A stretch of 47,316 nucleotides of DNA from Candidatus Hopanoidivorans cymbastelae (lineage in GTDB: Bacteria > Actinomycetota > Acidimicrobiia > Acidimicrobiales > Hopanoidiivorantaceae). Of this stretch, positions 12,705-19,256 are shown piece by piece. Below the pieces are notes generated by a model. The model made no database searches. It was not told the DNA's origin and saw only the letters and a list, made by a program, of their open reading frames with translations. Each line of letters begins with the position of its first letter. Within the stretch, counting starts at the first letter, position 1. The DNA lies in NCBI GenBank assembly GCA_028283145.1, contig JAPYNY010000079.1:1-47316 (forward strand). The letters run 5' to 3'. Made by a program: the position numbers and the translations under genes.

Positions 12705-12926
12705 ATGAAAACAATTACCAGCACCAAAAAGCCCAACCCAAACAAGAGGAAAAAGCAACCCCAGAAAAACCTGACTTCAGCTTGGGTCGAACAACAGCAG
12801 CTCATTGAGTTACCCACCGAGTGGGAGATAGATCCTCAGACTCGCAAAATCGGCTTGGAAGCCATTGCCCATATTCGCACTATTTTGAGTGCCTCACCCG
12901 ACACCAGCAAACCTTCCCCGAATTAG
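12705..12926 (+). CDS. Small basic hypothetical protein
   Basis: A 73-residue protein with a Lys-rich N-terminus (KKPNPNKRKKQPQKN) and an ordered-looking core: ELPTEWEIDPQTRKIGLEAI followed by AHIRTIL. The core resembles short actinobacterial proteins of unknown function with a W-x-I/L-D-x-x-T-R pattern, but I cannot name a family with certainty. It ends five bases before the probable start of the nuclease gene, so the two are likely cotranscribed. Confidence 0.6.
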   Translation: MKTITSTKKPNPNKRKKQPQKNLTSAWVEQQQLIELPTEWEIDPQTRKIGLEAIAHIRTILSASPDTSKPSPN

Positions 12927-12931
12927 CCGCC

Positions 12932-13612
12932 GTGGCTGGGGCATCTGTTCAAGTGCTCAAACTAACCGGGAAAGCTTCGGGGCGCGCCCAGGTGTTCTTA
13001 TGGCTGATTGCCTCGGCCCTGGTTTTGGCGGCAGCAACAGCAGCCTCAGCTTGCAGTCAGCCATCTCACATCAACAACTCACAAACCCAGCAAGACAATA
13101 CCCAACAAGGAGGCCCTATAGCAGCAGTTTCTACCATACATCCAGCAACCCAAGAGATTTTCACCCAAGCAGCCTTTGCGCCCGAAGACTCCTACAGCAC
13201 CACAGTTTCCAAGGTGCTAGACGGCGATACCATCGTGGCGCCTATAGATGGCAAGGAGTGGAACATCCGACTCATCGGCATTGACACTCCTGAAGCCAGT
13301 ACCCGTGAGCAAGAGTGCGGAGGAGCCGAGGCCACTGCCTTTTTGGAGGAGCTTATTCCTCCTAGAACTCAAATCCTGCTGACCCGAGGCGAAGAAGCCT
13401 ATGACATATACGACAGGCTCTTAGCTTATGTTTTCAGAGCCAGCGACAACTTGTTTGTCAACCTCGCCATGGCAAAATACGGGATGGCCTCAGAACTCTC
13501 ATTCGACCTCAACACGCAATTCCTGCCTCATTTCAAAAGAGCCGAATCCGAAGCCAGACAAAACCAGCTTGGAGTTTGGGGGCAGTGTGGCGGCACTGAC
13601 ACTCCGCTCTAG
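12932..13612 (+). CDS. Secreted thermonuclease (SNase-like) protein
   Basis: A staphylococcal-nuclease-fold protein of 226 residues from GTG 12932, which follows the upstream stop by five bases. A longer reading from GTG 12821 would overlap the upstream gene and encode an unlikely N-terminus. A hydrophobic segment (FLWLIASALVLAAATAA) is followed by Cys, a loose lipobox, so it is either a lipoprotein or exported. A Gln/Ser/Thr linker precedes the nuclease domain: VSKVLDGDTIVA, IRLIGIDTPEA, a DRLLAYVF strand and QNQLGVWG at the end. These match the calcium- and phosphate-binding Asp/Arg segments of SNases. Likely an extracellular nucleic acid scavenger. Confidence 0.88.
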   Translation: MAGASVQVLKLTGKASGRAQVFLWLIASALVLAAATAASACSQPSHINNSQTQQDNTQQGGPIAAVSTIHPATQEIFTQAAFAPEDSYSTTVSKVLDGDTIVAPIDGKEWNIRLIGIDTPEASTREQECGGAEATAFLEELIPPRTQILLTRGEEAYDIYDRLLAYVFRASDNLFVNLAMAKYGMASELSFDLNTQFLPHFKRAESEARQNQLGVWGQCGGTDTPL

Positions 13613-13663
13613 CTATCACGTAACTGGAGCAATTATCGCACTTTGAAAATTACGCTTAGAAAA

Positions 13664-14983
13664 ATGGCAGATGCCAACCACGCTGCGGGCACACGCACGG
13701 CGGATGTGCTTACTACAGATGTGCTCATTGTCGGAGGCGGACCGGCCGGCGCCTCAGCTGCTATCAGCCTGCGGCAAAACAGCTCATTTGACGTAACTTT
13801 GGTTGACAAAGCTGAATTCCCGCGAGATAAAGCTTGTGGAGATGGCCTTTCACCTGGAATTGTGCACCTTGCGCGAGAGTTGGGGGTTGAAACTCTTTTT
13901 GAAAATTATCCGCTTTGCGACAGCTATACCATTGTCGGCCCTGACAGTACGACAGTTTCCGGCACTATCGGAGCGGTAGTTTCAGCAACCGGCACGACTG
14001 CCCCCGGTGGCTATGTCATACCTAGGGAAATTTTTGACGCAGCCTTGTTGGCCAGATCTGAGGAATGCGGAGCCAAAGTCCTGACTGGGCACTCCTTCAA
14101 GTCCTTGCTTCAAGATGATGAAGGCGTTACCACTACAGTTGCCGCATCACAAAAAGACGAGCTGCTGATCCGCTCTCGAGTAGTGCTTGGAACAGACGGA
14201 GCCAACAGCCGGGTACGTTCAGCCCTTGGTGTCCCAGCCACGCCGAAAAAGCGCACCGGCATAGCCATGCGAGCCTACGCAGAATTTGCGCCTCATTCCA
14301 AACACGATATGAACCGGCTTTGGATTGTGTTTCACAGGGATTTGCTGCCGGCCTACGCCTGGCTGTTCCCATTTGCCAATAGTCACACCGCCGGCAACAA
14401 CGACAGCGAAGGCGTGGCTCAGATGGCCAATATCGGAGTGGGCTGCCTAGTCAAAGACCGCGAAACTTCCAGAGCTTGGTTTCTTCAGCAACTGGAAAAT
14501 TTCGCCCGGCAGTTAGAGCAGCACGGCATTTATTTTTCTTCAATCTCAAGTGAAAAAACCTACTTGCTTCCCCACGGCGGCAAACTGCCCAAGCTAGCTC
14601 ACAACCGAACTGCTTTAATTGGTGATGCGGCATCCATGATCAACCCACTCTCAGGTGAAGGCATCTACTACGGCATGTCGGCAGGTCACATGCTCGCACA
14701 AATCTTTTTTGCAGAAAACACCTACTCCTCCCACAATGAGCAGGCTGCTTTGAAAAAGTGGGAAGACTCCGTGCGACAGAGGTTTGCCAAGCACCTGCGG
14801 CATAACTACATCGGGCACCGGCTCATGCGCCATCCCAAATGGGCCAACACGCTGACTCAAACCATCGCAGCCGACCCGAAAGTCGCCGACAAGGCCATTG
14901 ATCTAATGCTGAAAGAGGGAACTCTGAATTTTGCCAGCTTCGCCAGAGTCTTGCGTAAACTCTTCAGGACTTCAAACAAGTAG
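13664..14983 (+). CDS. Geranylgeranyl-reductase-family FAD oxidoreductase
   Basis: A FAD-dependent protein of ~439 residues. The dinucleotide site is DVLIVGGGPAGASAA, followed by the family marker FPRDKACGDGLSPG, GTDGANSRVR and the second FAD motif ALIGDAASMINPLSGEGI. This group reduces polyprenyl chains or isoprenoid double bonds, for example in menaquinone or lipid tails, though many members are uncharacterised. The start may be ATG 13664 or TTG 13643; ATG is preferred because the preceding residues do not look conserved. It stands alone in the plus direction, about 50 bases after the nuclease gene. Confidence 0.88.
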   Translation: MADANHAAGTRTADVLTTDVLIVGGGPAGASAAISLRQNSSFDVTLVDKAEFPRDKACGDGLSPGIVHLARELGVETLFENYPLCDSYTIVGPDSTTVSGTIGAVVSATGTTAPGGYVIPREIFDAALLARSEECGAKVLTGHSFKSLLQDDEGVTTTVAASQKDELLIRSRVVLGTDGANSRVRSALGVPATPKKRTGIAMRAYAEFAPHSKHDMNRLWIVFHRDLLPAYAWLFPFANSHTAGNNDSEGVAQMANIGVGCLVKDRETSRAWFLQQLENFARQLEQHGIYFSSISSEKTYLLPHGGKLPKLAHNRTALIGDAASMINPLSGEGIYYGMSAGHMLAQIFFAENTYSSHNEQAALKKWEDSVRQRFAKHLRHNYIGHRLMRHPKWANTLTQTIAADPKVADKAIDLMLKEGTLNFASFARVLRKLFRTSNK

Positions 14984-15097: not shown

Positions 15098-15919
15098 ATG
15101 TCGATAGCTGAACAACTAGGATACCCAGCCGACTCAAAACTTCTGCTCATTACATGTGGCAACCTAGGTTGCTCCCACGCAGCCAACGTATCGGTCTATG
15201 AAGCTCTGCATTCAGGCATAGCTGCTTGCGCCTCCTTGATGATTCCATGCCCTTGGTCCCGAGAGGCGGCAGCCAACTATCGGGGGGAAGTAATCGGAGT
15301 TGAGCTCACCCTCAACGCCCCATACGACACTTATCGCTGGGGTCCGCTGACCTACGCCCCTTCCCTTTTGGATGGTGACGGCGGCTTCCCCAGAACTCCT
15401 AGCGACCTTTGGGACCATGCCGATACCGACGAGGTCTCACGAGAATGCAGAGTCCAAATTGAGCGGGCTATCCTGTGGGGTTTTGACGTGAGCTATTTGG
15501 GCGTTGCTCTGAACGTTCTATCTCCCAGACCTGAATTTTTTGATGTATATCTTGAACTAGCTGAAGAGTTCAACCTGCCTATTCGACTTCAGGGAAGTGA
15601 GAAGGACTATGGCTTCCCCTTTAAACAACTAGCTTGGGAGCGCGGAATTTTCTTTCCAGACCAGGTTGTCCAACTGCGTCAAGGTGACTTAGGCAAGGCA
15701 TTTACTGAAGTCTTGGAAAATTTGCCTGCCGGAATTACCGAAATTCTCCTGCATCCTGCCTTGGACACCGACGAACAACGTGCTTTAGACCCCAACTGGT
15801 CTCACGCTCAGAAAGAACATCAACTCGCCTCACACAATGCCACCACCAGAGAGCTGCTGGCAACTTCAGACGCTGTGCTCATCAACTACGATTTATTGAG
15901 ACAAGCTCAGCGCCGATAG
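15098..15919 (+). CDS. ChbG/YdjC-fold protein lacking the metal site (pseudoenzyme)
   Basis: A 273-residue protein with the overall YdjC/ChbG carbohydrate deacetylase layout: first strand and helix (LLLITCGNLGCSHAANVSVY), GVELTLN, the RWGPLTYAPSLLDGDGGFPR segment, ILWGFDVSYLGVALN and ILLHPALDTDE. In active members the first motif is NADD-G, the second has G-x-H-x-x-L, and the third is T-H-L-D-S-H-x-H. Here these read TCGN-G, GVEL and SYLGVALN, so the Asp and His metal ligands are all gone while the surrounding scaffold is kept. Deacetylase activity is therefore unlikely; a binding or regulatory role is possible. The preceding leader is C-rich with no Shine-Dalgarno. Confidence 0.8.
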   Translation: MSIAEQLGYPADSKLLLITCGNLGCSHAANVSVYEALHSGIAACASLMIPCPWSREAAANYRGEVIGVELTLNAPYDTYRWGPLTYAPSLLDGDGGFPRTPSDLWDHADTDEVSRECRVQIERAILWGFDVSYLGVALNVLSPRPEFFDVYLELAEEFNLPIRLQGSEKDYGFPFKQLAWERGIFFPDQVVQLRQGDLGKAFTEVLENLPAGITEILLHPALDTDEQRALDPNWSHAQKEHQLASHNATTRELLATSDAVLINYDLLRQAQRR

Positions 15920-17620: not shown

Positions 17621-18034
17621 TCAATTATCCTTTGTAAGTTGATCGACTGCTTGTTTGAAATCCTTCCATTCGGGCTGTTCATACAAGGGGCGCAGCCCAA
17701 AAACTAAAACCCCGTAATCACCCTCAACCTTAAGCCAGCCTTGCATGTAGCCAACTTCTGCTTCCGCTTCACCTTTGACAATTGCCAAAGCCTGTGGCAG
17801 TTTGCAAGCGACTGAACAGCTGGCTTCGGGCAGCTTGCCTAGGCCCAACTCAACTAACCGACCATCCTTCAAGGCAGCGTGGAAACGCATGGGTGGCTTT
17901 TTGGAAGACTTGCCTGTGGCAAACTCAAAATTTACCACTGCCGACATTCCCGTCAAGCCGGGCAAAACCTTAGCTGCATCCAAAACCCGCTCAAGCCATG
18001 GCTCAGACAGAAAATCTTCCACTGATGGATTCAA
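17621..18034 (-). CDS. SCP2 sterol-binding-domain protein
   Basis: A 137-residue protein matching the SCP-2 lipid-carrier fold: AVVNFEFATGK, MRFHAALKDGRLVEL, the PEASCSVACKLPQALAIVKG strand-helix and EVGYMQGWLKVEGDYG. Such domains bind lipids or acyl-CoA in a hydrophobic tunnel. The start is TTG 18034 with GCGAGG seven bases upstream, a usable Shine-Dalgarno. It lies about 110 bases after mca and one base before the PPOX gene, so the three are probably cotranscribed. Confidence 0.82.
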   Translation of the reverse strand: MNPSVEDFLSEPWLERVLDAAKVLPGLTGMSAVVNFEFATGKSSKKPPMRFHAALKDGRLVELGLGKLPEASCSVACKLPQALAIVKGEAEAEVGYMQGWLKVEGDYGVLVFGLRPLYEQPEWKDFKQAVDQLTKDN

Positions 18035-18145: not shown

Positions 18146-19132
18146 TCACACAGCCCTGTCTGACAACTGTCGTGGGCGATGCGCCTCGGAGTTGCAACCC
18201 GCTCCCAGTTGGCTGGCACCATGCTGGCAGTCATAAATCCCGGCAAACAAATCATCCTCTGGAAATTCAGTTGAAACATGCGACCTAGCCAAGATGTAAT
18301 CTTCCCAAGGATATACATCCTTGGCAACATCTCTGGGCAGGCCAAACCAAAACGGGGAATCAGGAGACACTTGGGTGGCGTGCGCCAACAAGGCGTCACA
18401 ACGACGGTCAAACCAATCTCGCACTTCTATTTTGGTGGTAATCCGATGATCTTGTGATGGGCGCTTAAACCACCGCTCGTCAAAGGGCGATTCCAACCCC
18501 AGTTCCTTGAACTTGTTGTGGGTAGCTTCCACACGAGCTCGGCTCCAAGGAGTGTAATACAGCTTGCTGGGCTGCCAGGCTGCCCCTGCCTCAGGATAGG
18601 CCTCAGGGTTCCCGGCAGCGTCAAAAGCTAAAACGGAAATGTCGTGCACTCTGACGTGGTCGGGATGGTCATATCCACTTTGATCGTCGGGGTAGGTGAG
18701 AATTACATGGGGCCGCTCAACTCTGATGATCTCAACCAGACGCCCCACTGCCTCATCCAGTGGAGCAGCCGCAAAACATTCAGGATGTGAGTTGGCCTCG
18801 CTGTCTTTCATGCCGGAATCTCTGTAGCCCAGCATGTAGGTTTTCTGATAACCAATAATCTCAACTGCCGCCGCTAACTCCTGGCGACGCACTTCAGCCA
18901 TATTCTCACGAATTTCAGGCAGATTCAAGGCTTCGTTCAAGACATCGCCTTCTTCGCCACCAGTACAGCAAACCAGAGTGGCCTCAACGCCTGAGTCGAC
19001 ATAGCGAGCGACCGTGCCCGCGCCTTTGGAAGATTCATCATCGGGGTGGGCATGGACGCTCAGCAACCTTCCGTTTCCACCAACCAACCCTTGGTGCACC
19101 AAGCTGTTGTCGCTGCTGTTGGGTAAGCTCAT
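18146..19132 (-). CDS. mca: Mycothiol S-conjugate amidase
   Basis: Cleaves mycothiol conjugates, releasing a mercapturic acid for export and GlcN-inositol for recycling; this is the actinobacterial detoxification route. It is a zinc amidase of the LmbE-like family: HAHPDDE carries the first ligands, HPDH the later ones. CCTGGEEGD, YRDSGMKDSEAN and KLYYTPWSRAR follow the Mca rather than the MshB pattern. ATG 19132 has GGCGAGA just upstream and is preferred; ATG 19171 is possible. The C-terminal ~35 residues, with two Cys, extend beyond the usual end. mshC in this window supplies the same thiol pathway. Confidence 0.92.
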   Translation of the reverse strand: MSLPNSSDNSLVHQGLVGGNGRLLSVHAHPDDESSKGAGTVARYVDSGVEATLVCCTGGEEGDVLNEALNLPEIRENMAEVRRQELAAAVEIIGYQKTYMLGYRDSGMKDSEANSHPECFAAAPLDEAVGRLVEIIRVERPHVILTYPDDQSGYDHPDHVRVHDISVLAFDAAGNPEAYPEAGAAWQPSKLYYTPWSRARVEATHNKFKELGLESPFDERWFKRPSQDHRITTKIEVRDWFDRRCDALLAHATQVSPDSPFWFGLPRDVAKDVYPWEDYILARSHVSTEFPEDDLFAGIYDCQHGASQLGAGCNSEAHRPRQLSDRAV

Positions 19133-19256
19133 GTTCTCGCCGGTGACTTTTGTAAAGCCTGTGCTTTTCATAGAGATTTAACGCTACCGCAGCTTGGCCC
19201 GATGGCAGTTAAATCACAGGGTTGTGATGGTTCCAGAAAACTACGCTGCCAAAAAG

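Follow-up and report, generated by a model that had tools for sequence, protein, structure and literature searches.

A YdjC/ChbG-fold protein without any metal ligand, and apparent repeated loss of the metal site in its orthologues across the host order

In the 47,316 nt stretch of contig JAPYNY010000079.1 from Candidatus Hopanoidivorans cymbastelae that was analysed here, in the following called the window, an open reading frame of 273 codons (15098..15919, plus strand, start codon ATG) encodes a YdjC/ChbG-fold protein in which no metal ligand remains. The gene is orthologous and mostly single-copy in the host order, Acidimicrobiales, and repeated losses of the metal site seem to have occurred at one locus while the gene remained under selection. 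We consider it probable that the window protein has given up metal-dependent deacetylation and is kept for a non-hydrolytic role, the binding of a ligand or a partner.

The assignment to the family is clear. The window protein matches PF04794 (YdjC) with an E-value of 7.9e-31 and 108.3 bits against a curated cut-off of 29.7, and this is its sole Pfam match at E <= 0.001. By sequence it is not a member of the NodB (CE4) family, to which its structural likeness is modest (Z about 12-13). The solved structures nearest in sequence are 8jqe (phmmer 5e-33) and 2e67. Retention of the fold, asserted in an earlier note on this DNA, is supported by an AlphaFold2 model built on a 14-sequence alignment (mean pLDDT 86, pTM 0.86), which has a predicted ChbG-like fold. 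The model superposes on 8jqe_B with a Z-score of 34.0 (rmsd 1.9, 269 residues), followed by 2i5i_A (Z 30.7), 2e67_A (Z 29.7) and 7vi8_B (Z 27.5), and the next entries have Z <= 17. No signal peptide is apparent by eye. Named relatives at 53-57% identity are MAGs assigned to Acidimicrobiia, Acidimicrobiaceae, Acidimicrobiales and Actinomycetes; distant marine relatives, e.g., Pelagicoccus and Allomuricauda, share 31-43% identity. A viral origin or carriage of the window ydjC was rejected, as a search of viral contigs yielded no relative.

We compared the active site residue by residue with the ChbG of Klebsiella pneumoniae (kpChbG, 7vi8), whose fold the model of the window protein shares. According to PMC9402603, D11, H61 and H125 of kpChbG hold the Zn2+ ion, D10 is the proposed base, H206 the proposed acid, and R223 is among the contacts to acetate. 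The three ligands align with N22, E69 and A137 of the window protein, D10 with G21 and H206 with H219, while A237 is the probable equivalent of R223, judged from the alignment. Accordingly, the motif CDDLG of homologues reads TCGN-LG, the base Asp and the metal Asp having become G21-N22 (15158..15163). GVHLTL reads GVELTL, with E69 (15302..15304) replacing the metal His. SHLDSH reads SYLGVA, in which Y133...A137 (15494..15508) replaces the HxxxH motif; A137 occupies the metal-His position, and the extra His has become Y133. The presumed acetate-contacting Arg is replaced by A237 (15806..15808). Only the general-acid His remains, H219 in an HPA motif (15752..15754; all on the plus strand), shared with kpChbG. 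The window protein has therefore lost five of six catalytic residues: the Asp/His/His ligands, the base Asp and the acetate Arg. The earlier note was right that all metal ligands are replaced on a YdjC scaffold, but in describing the loss of the active site it overlooked the retained acid.

The solved members of the family differ from the window protein at exactly these positions. CmCBDA (8jqe/8jqf), of the same family and fold, has the motifs HADD, GVHL and HIDSH, and according to the PDB titles its structures contain Mn2+ or Ni2+ and glycerol. TTHB029 (2e67) and EF3048 (2i5i) belong to the YdjC family as well, and their active-site residues are reported as conserved in PMC9402603, unlike those of the window protein. 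Most likely, the window protein no longer carries out metal-dependent deacetylation.

The changes fall on the catalytic sites more often than expected by chance. Intact relatives have 108 sites that are at least 95% conserved; the window protein departs from them at 20, and five of the six catalytic sites belong to these 20 (hypergeometric p = 0.0007), although the six sites are conserved by construction because the intact set was chosen by these same sites. Of the 33 metal-intact ingroup rows, 31 have Arg at position 237. G21, N22 and E69 of the window protein are also found in the genus sister (L003), which differs in S137 and N237; the sister keeps H133, and H219 is present in both genus members.

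The orthologue is widespread in the host order. Of 59 relatives, 50 carry it, as do 255 of the 298 genomes sampled from the order (206 of the 227 more complete ones); the two samples overlap. Our alignment comprises 111 homologues, of which 103 are ingroup; L045 (128 aa) and L129 (a 13-aa fragment with a stop in the match) were dropped beforehand. All three metal ligands are retained in 33 ingroup rows, two in 28, one in 29 and none in 13, and the base, ligands and acid are all kept in 26; these fractions over 103 rows overstate the loss, as the choice of rows partly favoured families in which losses occur. In a fairer sample of 50 genomes, about one per family, 28 have all three metal ligands and 22 lack at least one, and base, ligands and acid are all kept in 22.

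From other orders of the class we sampled 13 orthologues (56-73% identity to the intact orthologue L004), 10 with all six residues and three with one change, from a hand-picked set that includes low scorers (20 stretches fetched, of which two gave no match and five no close orthologue, at 35-37% identity). A further set of other-order orthologues was intact throughout, but it was drawn from the highest scores of an HMM search, which biases it to intact motifs. With all six residues in 10 of the 13 orthologues, an intact active site was most likely ancestral. The three single changes (acid to Ser in L171, metal Asp to Glu in L172 and acid to Arg in L173) may represent the beginning of the same process of loss.

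We mapped the residues on a tree of 125 rows computed without the catalytic columns, from which L066, L133, ten paralogues and four duplicates of rows already included were omitted. Parsimony required 13, 11, 14, 5, 11 and 12 changes between intact and lost states at positions 21, 22, 69, 137, 219 and 237; with regain forbidden, each site needed 8 to 26 independent losses. The counts are approximate, since the tree is a quick one and support is weak at many of its forks. On these sequences, the catalytic residues were lost many separate times within the host order and not in a single derived clade. The window protein and its sister are placed beside a group of seven rows with the pattern ENN...N (SH-aLRT 83), within a clade of 12 rows (87). 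N22 occurs in all 12 rows of this clade, so the earlier expectation of changes shared by a clade holds locally, but the loss itself recurs across the order. An independent-pairs comparison of the loss of metal ligands with that of acid, base and Arg had only three supported pairs and no statistical power.

These patterns bear on whether the protein might still be an enzyme. One alternative is that the barrel was repurposed for metal-independent chemistry, using the kept H219 together with the new polar residues E69 and N22. The retention of H219 in both genus members, the HxxxH motif retained in many relatives and the strong conservation around the site would fit altered chemistry, and PMC10967932 describes a NodB-fold enzyme, 3CL6, as non-metal-dependent, in which one MT2 His and the two MT1 Asp residues are missing. 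However, replacements at position 22 vary widely by lineage (N, G, Q, E, S, H, C, L, R, F, P and Y), which is hard to reconcile with one new chemistry, and the acid His itself is gone in 67 of the 125 rows. We therefore regard a metal-independent enzyme as unlikely.

A migrated metal site, in which other residues such as E69 and H219 would bind the metal and the deacetylase would still be active, appears quite unlikely too. E69 and H219 are common to the window protein and its sister, which also has H133, and a review cautions about migrated catalytic residues (PMC10211241). Against this, positions 133 and 137 of the window protein are Tyr and Ala, the base and the acetate Arg are lost as well, and H219 occupies the position of the acid, not that of a metal ligand. 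A non-hydrolytic binding role remains our preferred reading.

The earlier note had favoured selection over decay, and for the metal-lost relatives the codon analysis agrees. We computed pairwise codon models for 480 pairs and restricted the summaries to dS 0.1-3; a few failed fits at saturated dS were not used. For 35 metal-lost pairs (28 rows), dN/dS (omega) ranges from 0.020 to 0.176 with a median of 0.041, compared with a median of 0.062 for 11 metal-intact pairs. In the 29 pairs (16 rows) that retain no more than one metal ligand, omega is 0.02-0.10 (median 0.035), and in the ENN...N group, whose seven rows mostly belong to family f56, the replaced residues are nearly fixed at an omega of about 0.02-0.05. 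The pair of window protein and sister gave no usable omega because dS is saturated, but fixing omega at 1 gives a much poorer fit (2 delta lnL 229), and the two genes differ at 91, 42 and 174 first, second and third codon positions over 273 codons. Purifying selection on the metal-lost relatives is strong; for the window lineage it is shown only indirectly, due to the saturated dS. Catalytic motifs are missing, as in pseudoenzymes, and in the metal-lost relatives the gene is retained under purifying selection.

A gene that has no role left and decays slowly as selection relaxes would fit the faster relative drift of metal-poor members. The ratio of YdjC to neighbour drift in metal-poor versus metal-intact pairs is 1.22 versus 0.90 for PIG-L, 1.46 versus 0.97 for LLM and 0.93 versus 0.66 for SNase, i.e., YdjC drifts about 1.35-1.5 times faster relative to these neighbours once the metal site is poor, and constraint is therefore partly relaxed. 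In addition, ydjC is missing from 43 of the 298 host-order genomes, hence its role is dispensable in places. The low omega values and the excess of third-position differences between window and sister speak against decay, and 49 of the 50 best matches listed among relatives have long open frames, with a stop in none of them. Taken against the low omega, the faster drift, the absences and the one match with a stop indicate that constraint is eased but still present, and decay without any remaining role is very unlikely. The match with a stop is L129 (genome G221), an in-frame TAG in an orthologue from family f33, whose copies are among the most diverged; it is possibly a genuine pseudogene.

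That misassembly, a frameshift or wrong homology created the motif differences is scarcely credible even for a draft genome (90 contigs, 2.33 Mb, 88.8% complete), since G21, N22 and E69 also occur in the independent single-contig genome G001 and the alignment is free of frameshifts over the whole window protein.

To see which segments are kept, we compared the conservation of metal-poor rows (at most one ligand, n = 42) with that of metal-intact rows (n = 33). Mean conservation falls from 0.76 in metal-intact to 0.61 in metal-poor rows. The least extra drift upon loss of the metal site is found in the helical stretch of residues 101-126 (15398..15475) and in the helix of residues 144-160 (15527..15577), both with a ratio of 0.92. 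Residues 81-98 (RWGPLTYAPSLLDGDGGFP; 15338..15391) follow with 0.87 and residues 51-56 with 0.86. In the model, segment 81-98 is a loop leading from strand 66-70, which bears position 69, to helix 101-105. From this pattern, the catalytic centre may be less important than a ligand-facing loop and outer helices.

Loci with and without the metal site have the same gene neighbourhood. Of 69 metal-lost loci, 43 have a gene for an SNase-family nuclease directly upstream of ydjC on the same strand, compared with 19 of 33 metal-intact loci (Fisher p 0.67; one of 103 loci was set aside for its short flank). The median gap is 58 bases, and the two genes may form an operon. At the sister locus 60 bases separate SNase from ydjC, and 37 bases downstream lies an APH-family gene. 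In the window, the SNase-family gene (12821..13612, plus strand) is separated from ydjC by one inserted gene, encoding a geranylgeranyl-reductase-family FAD protein (13643..14983, plus strand), for which no match was found within the sister G001 stretch. Downstream of ydjC, PIG-L and a small SCP2-like gene are often present in convergent orientation; here they are a PIG-L deacetylase-family gene (18146..19171, minus strand) and a gene at 17621..18034 (minus strand) whose product is SCP2-like by eye and has no Pfam match. The likeness of the neighbourhood in intact and lost forms favours an unchanged biological role. We also tried to derive a function from the neighbourhood, but the conserved SNase, PIG-L, SCP2-like, LLM oxidoreductase and PhoU/TrkA genes suggest no obvious pathway. 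Close to the left end of the window, a leucine-rich-repeat protein (LRR_1) is encoded at 565-2499.

Pseudoenzymes are usually described as paralogues alongside an active copy. Compensation by an intact paralogue was rejected for the window genome: it has one PF04794 gene, and no second one was found in this draft, 88.8% complete. ChbG-like second copies that keep the DD/H/H/H motifs do occur in other genomes of the host order, namely G004 (L134), G054 (L136), G095 (L137) and G154 (L140), and the main ydjC copies of G004 (L051) and G054 (L023) are intact.

Purifying selection, the same neighbourhood and the predicted fold together suggest that selection keeps something other than metal-dependent deacetylation. 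The earlier note had thought of a sugar-binding or regulatory protein. In the reading that we prefer, a vertically inherited YdjC-family gene sits at the same locus as its intact orthologues, and the intact ancestor would have had a further role besides catalysis. This further role might be the binding of an (amino)sugar ligand or of a protein partner via loop 81-98 and helices 101-126 and 144-160, and binding would be what selection preserves. If so, the catalytic centre can go repeatedly while the gene stays. More tentatively, deacetylation may never have been the main selected function of YdjC in the host order, the non-catalytic role being present already in the intact ancestor; we regard this as possible but rather less than probable. 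Genomes keeping such an ancestral role would then lose the metal site in parallel in many lineages.

Among related barrels, pseudoenzymes have been described. The CE4 proteins BA0150 (4m1b) and BA3943 (7bkf) and the probably inactive 2vyo have a deacetylase barrel with catalytic residues lost (PDB titles and PMC10967932), and this kind of protein is therefore known as such. CE4 is, however, a separate family, related to the window model only in structure (Z about 12-13), and these cases are individual proteins, whereas the YdjC gene described here is an orthologous gene losing its site repeatedly across an order. The putative polysaccharide deacetylases BA0330 and BA0331, reported in PMC4505593 as inactive yet important to the cell, are similar in this respect, but they belong to a different family and are lipoproteins, unlike the window protein, which lacks a signal peptide by eye. 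In a limited search of the literature we found neither YdjC pseudoenzymes nor a vertically inherited YdjC gene whose site is lost again and again within an order.

If a non-catalytic role was indeed the main selected function from the start, the parallel losses would be a natural replicate series of transitions from enzyme to pseudoenzyme, all within one gene and at one locus. The same protein is available with its site intact, half lost or fully lost, which is material for asking which function came first and in which order the residues are lost. For a good part of the host order, labelling matches to PF04794 as deacetylases would mislead.
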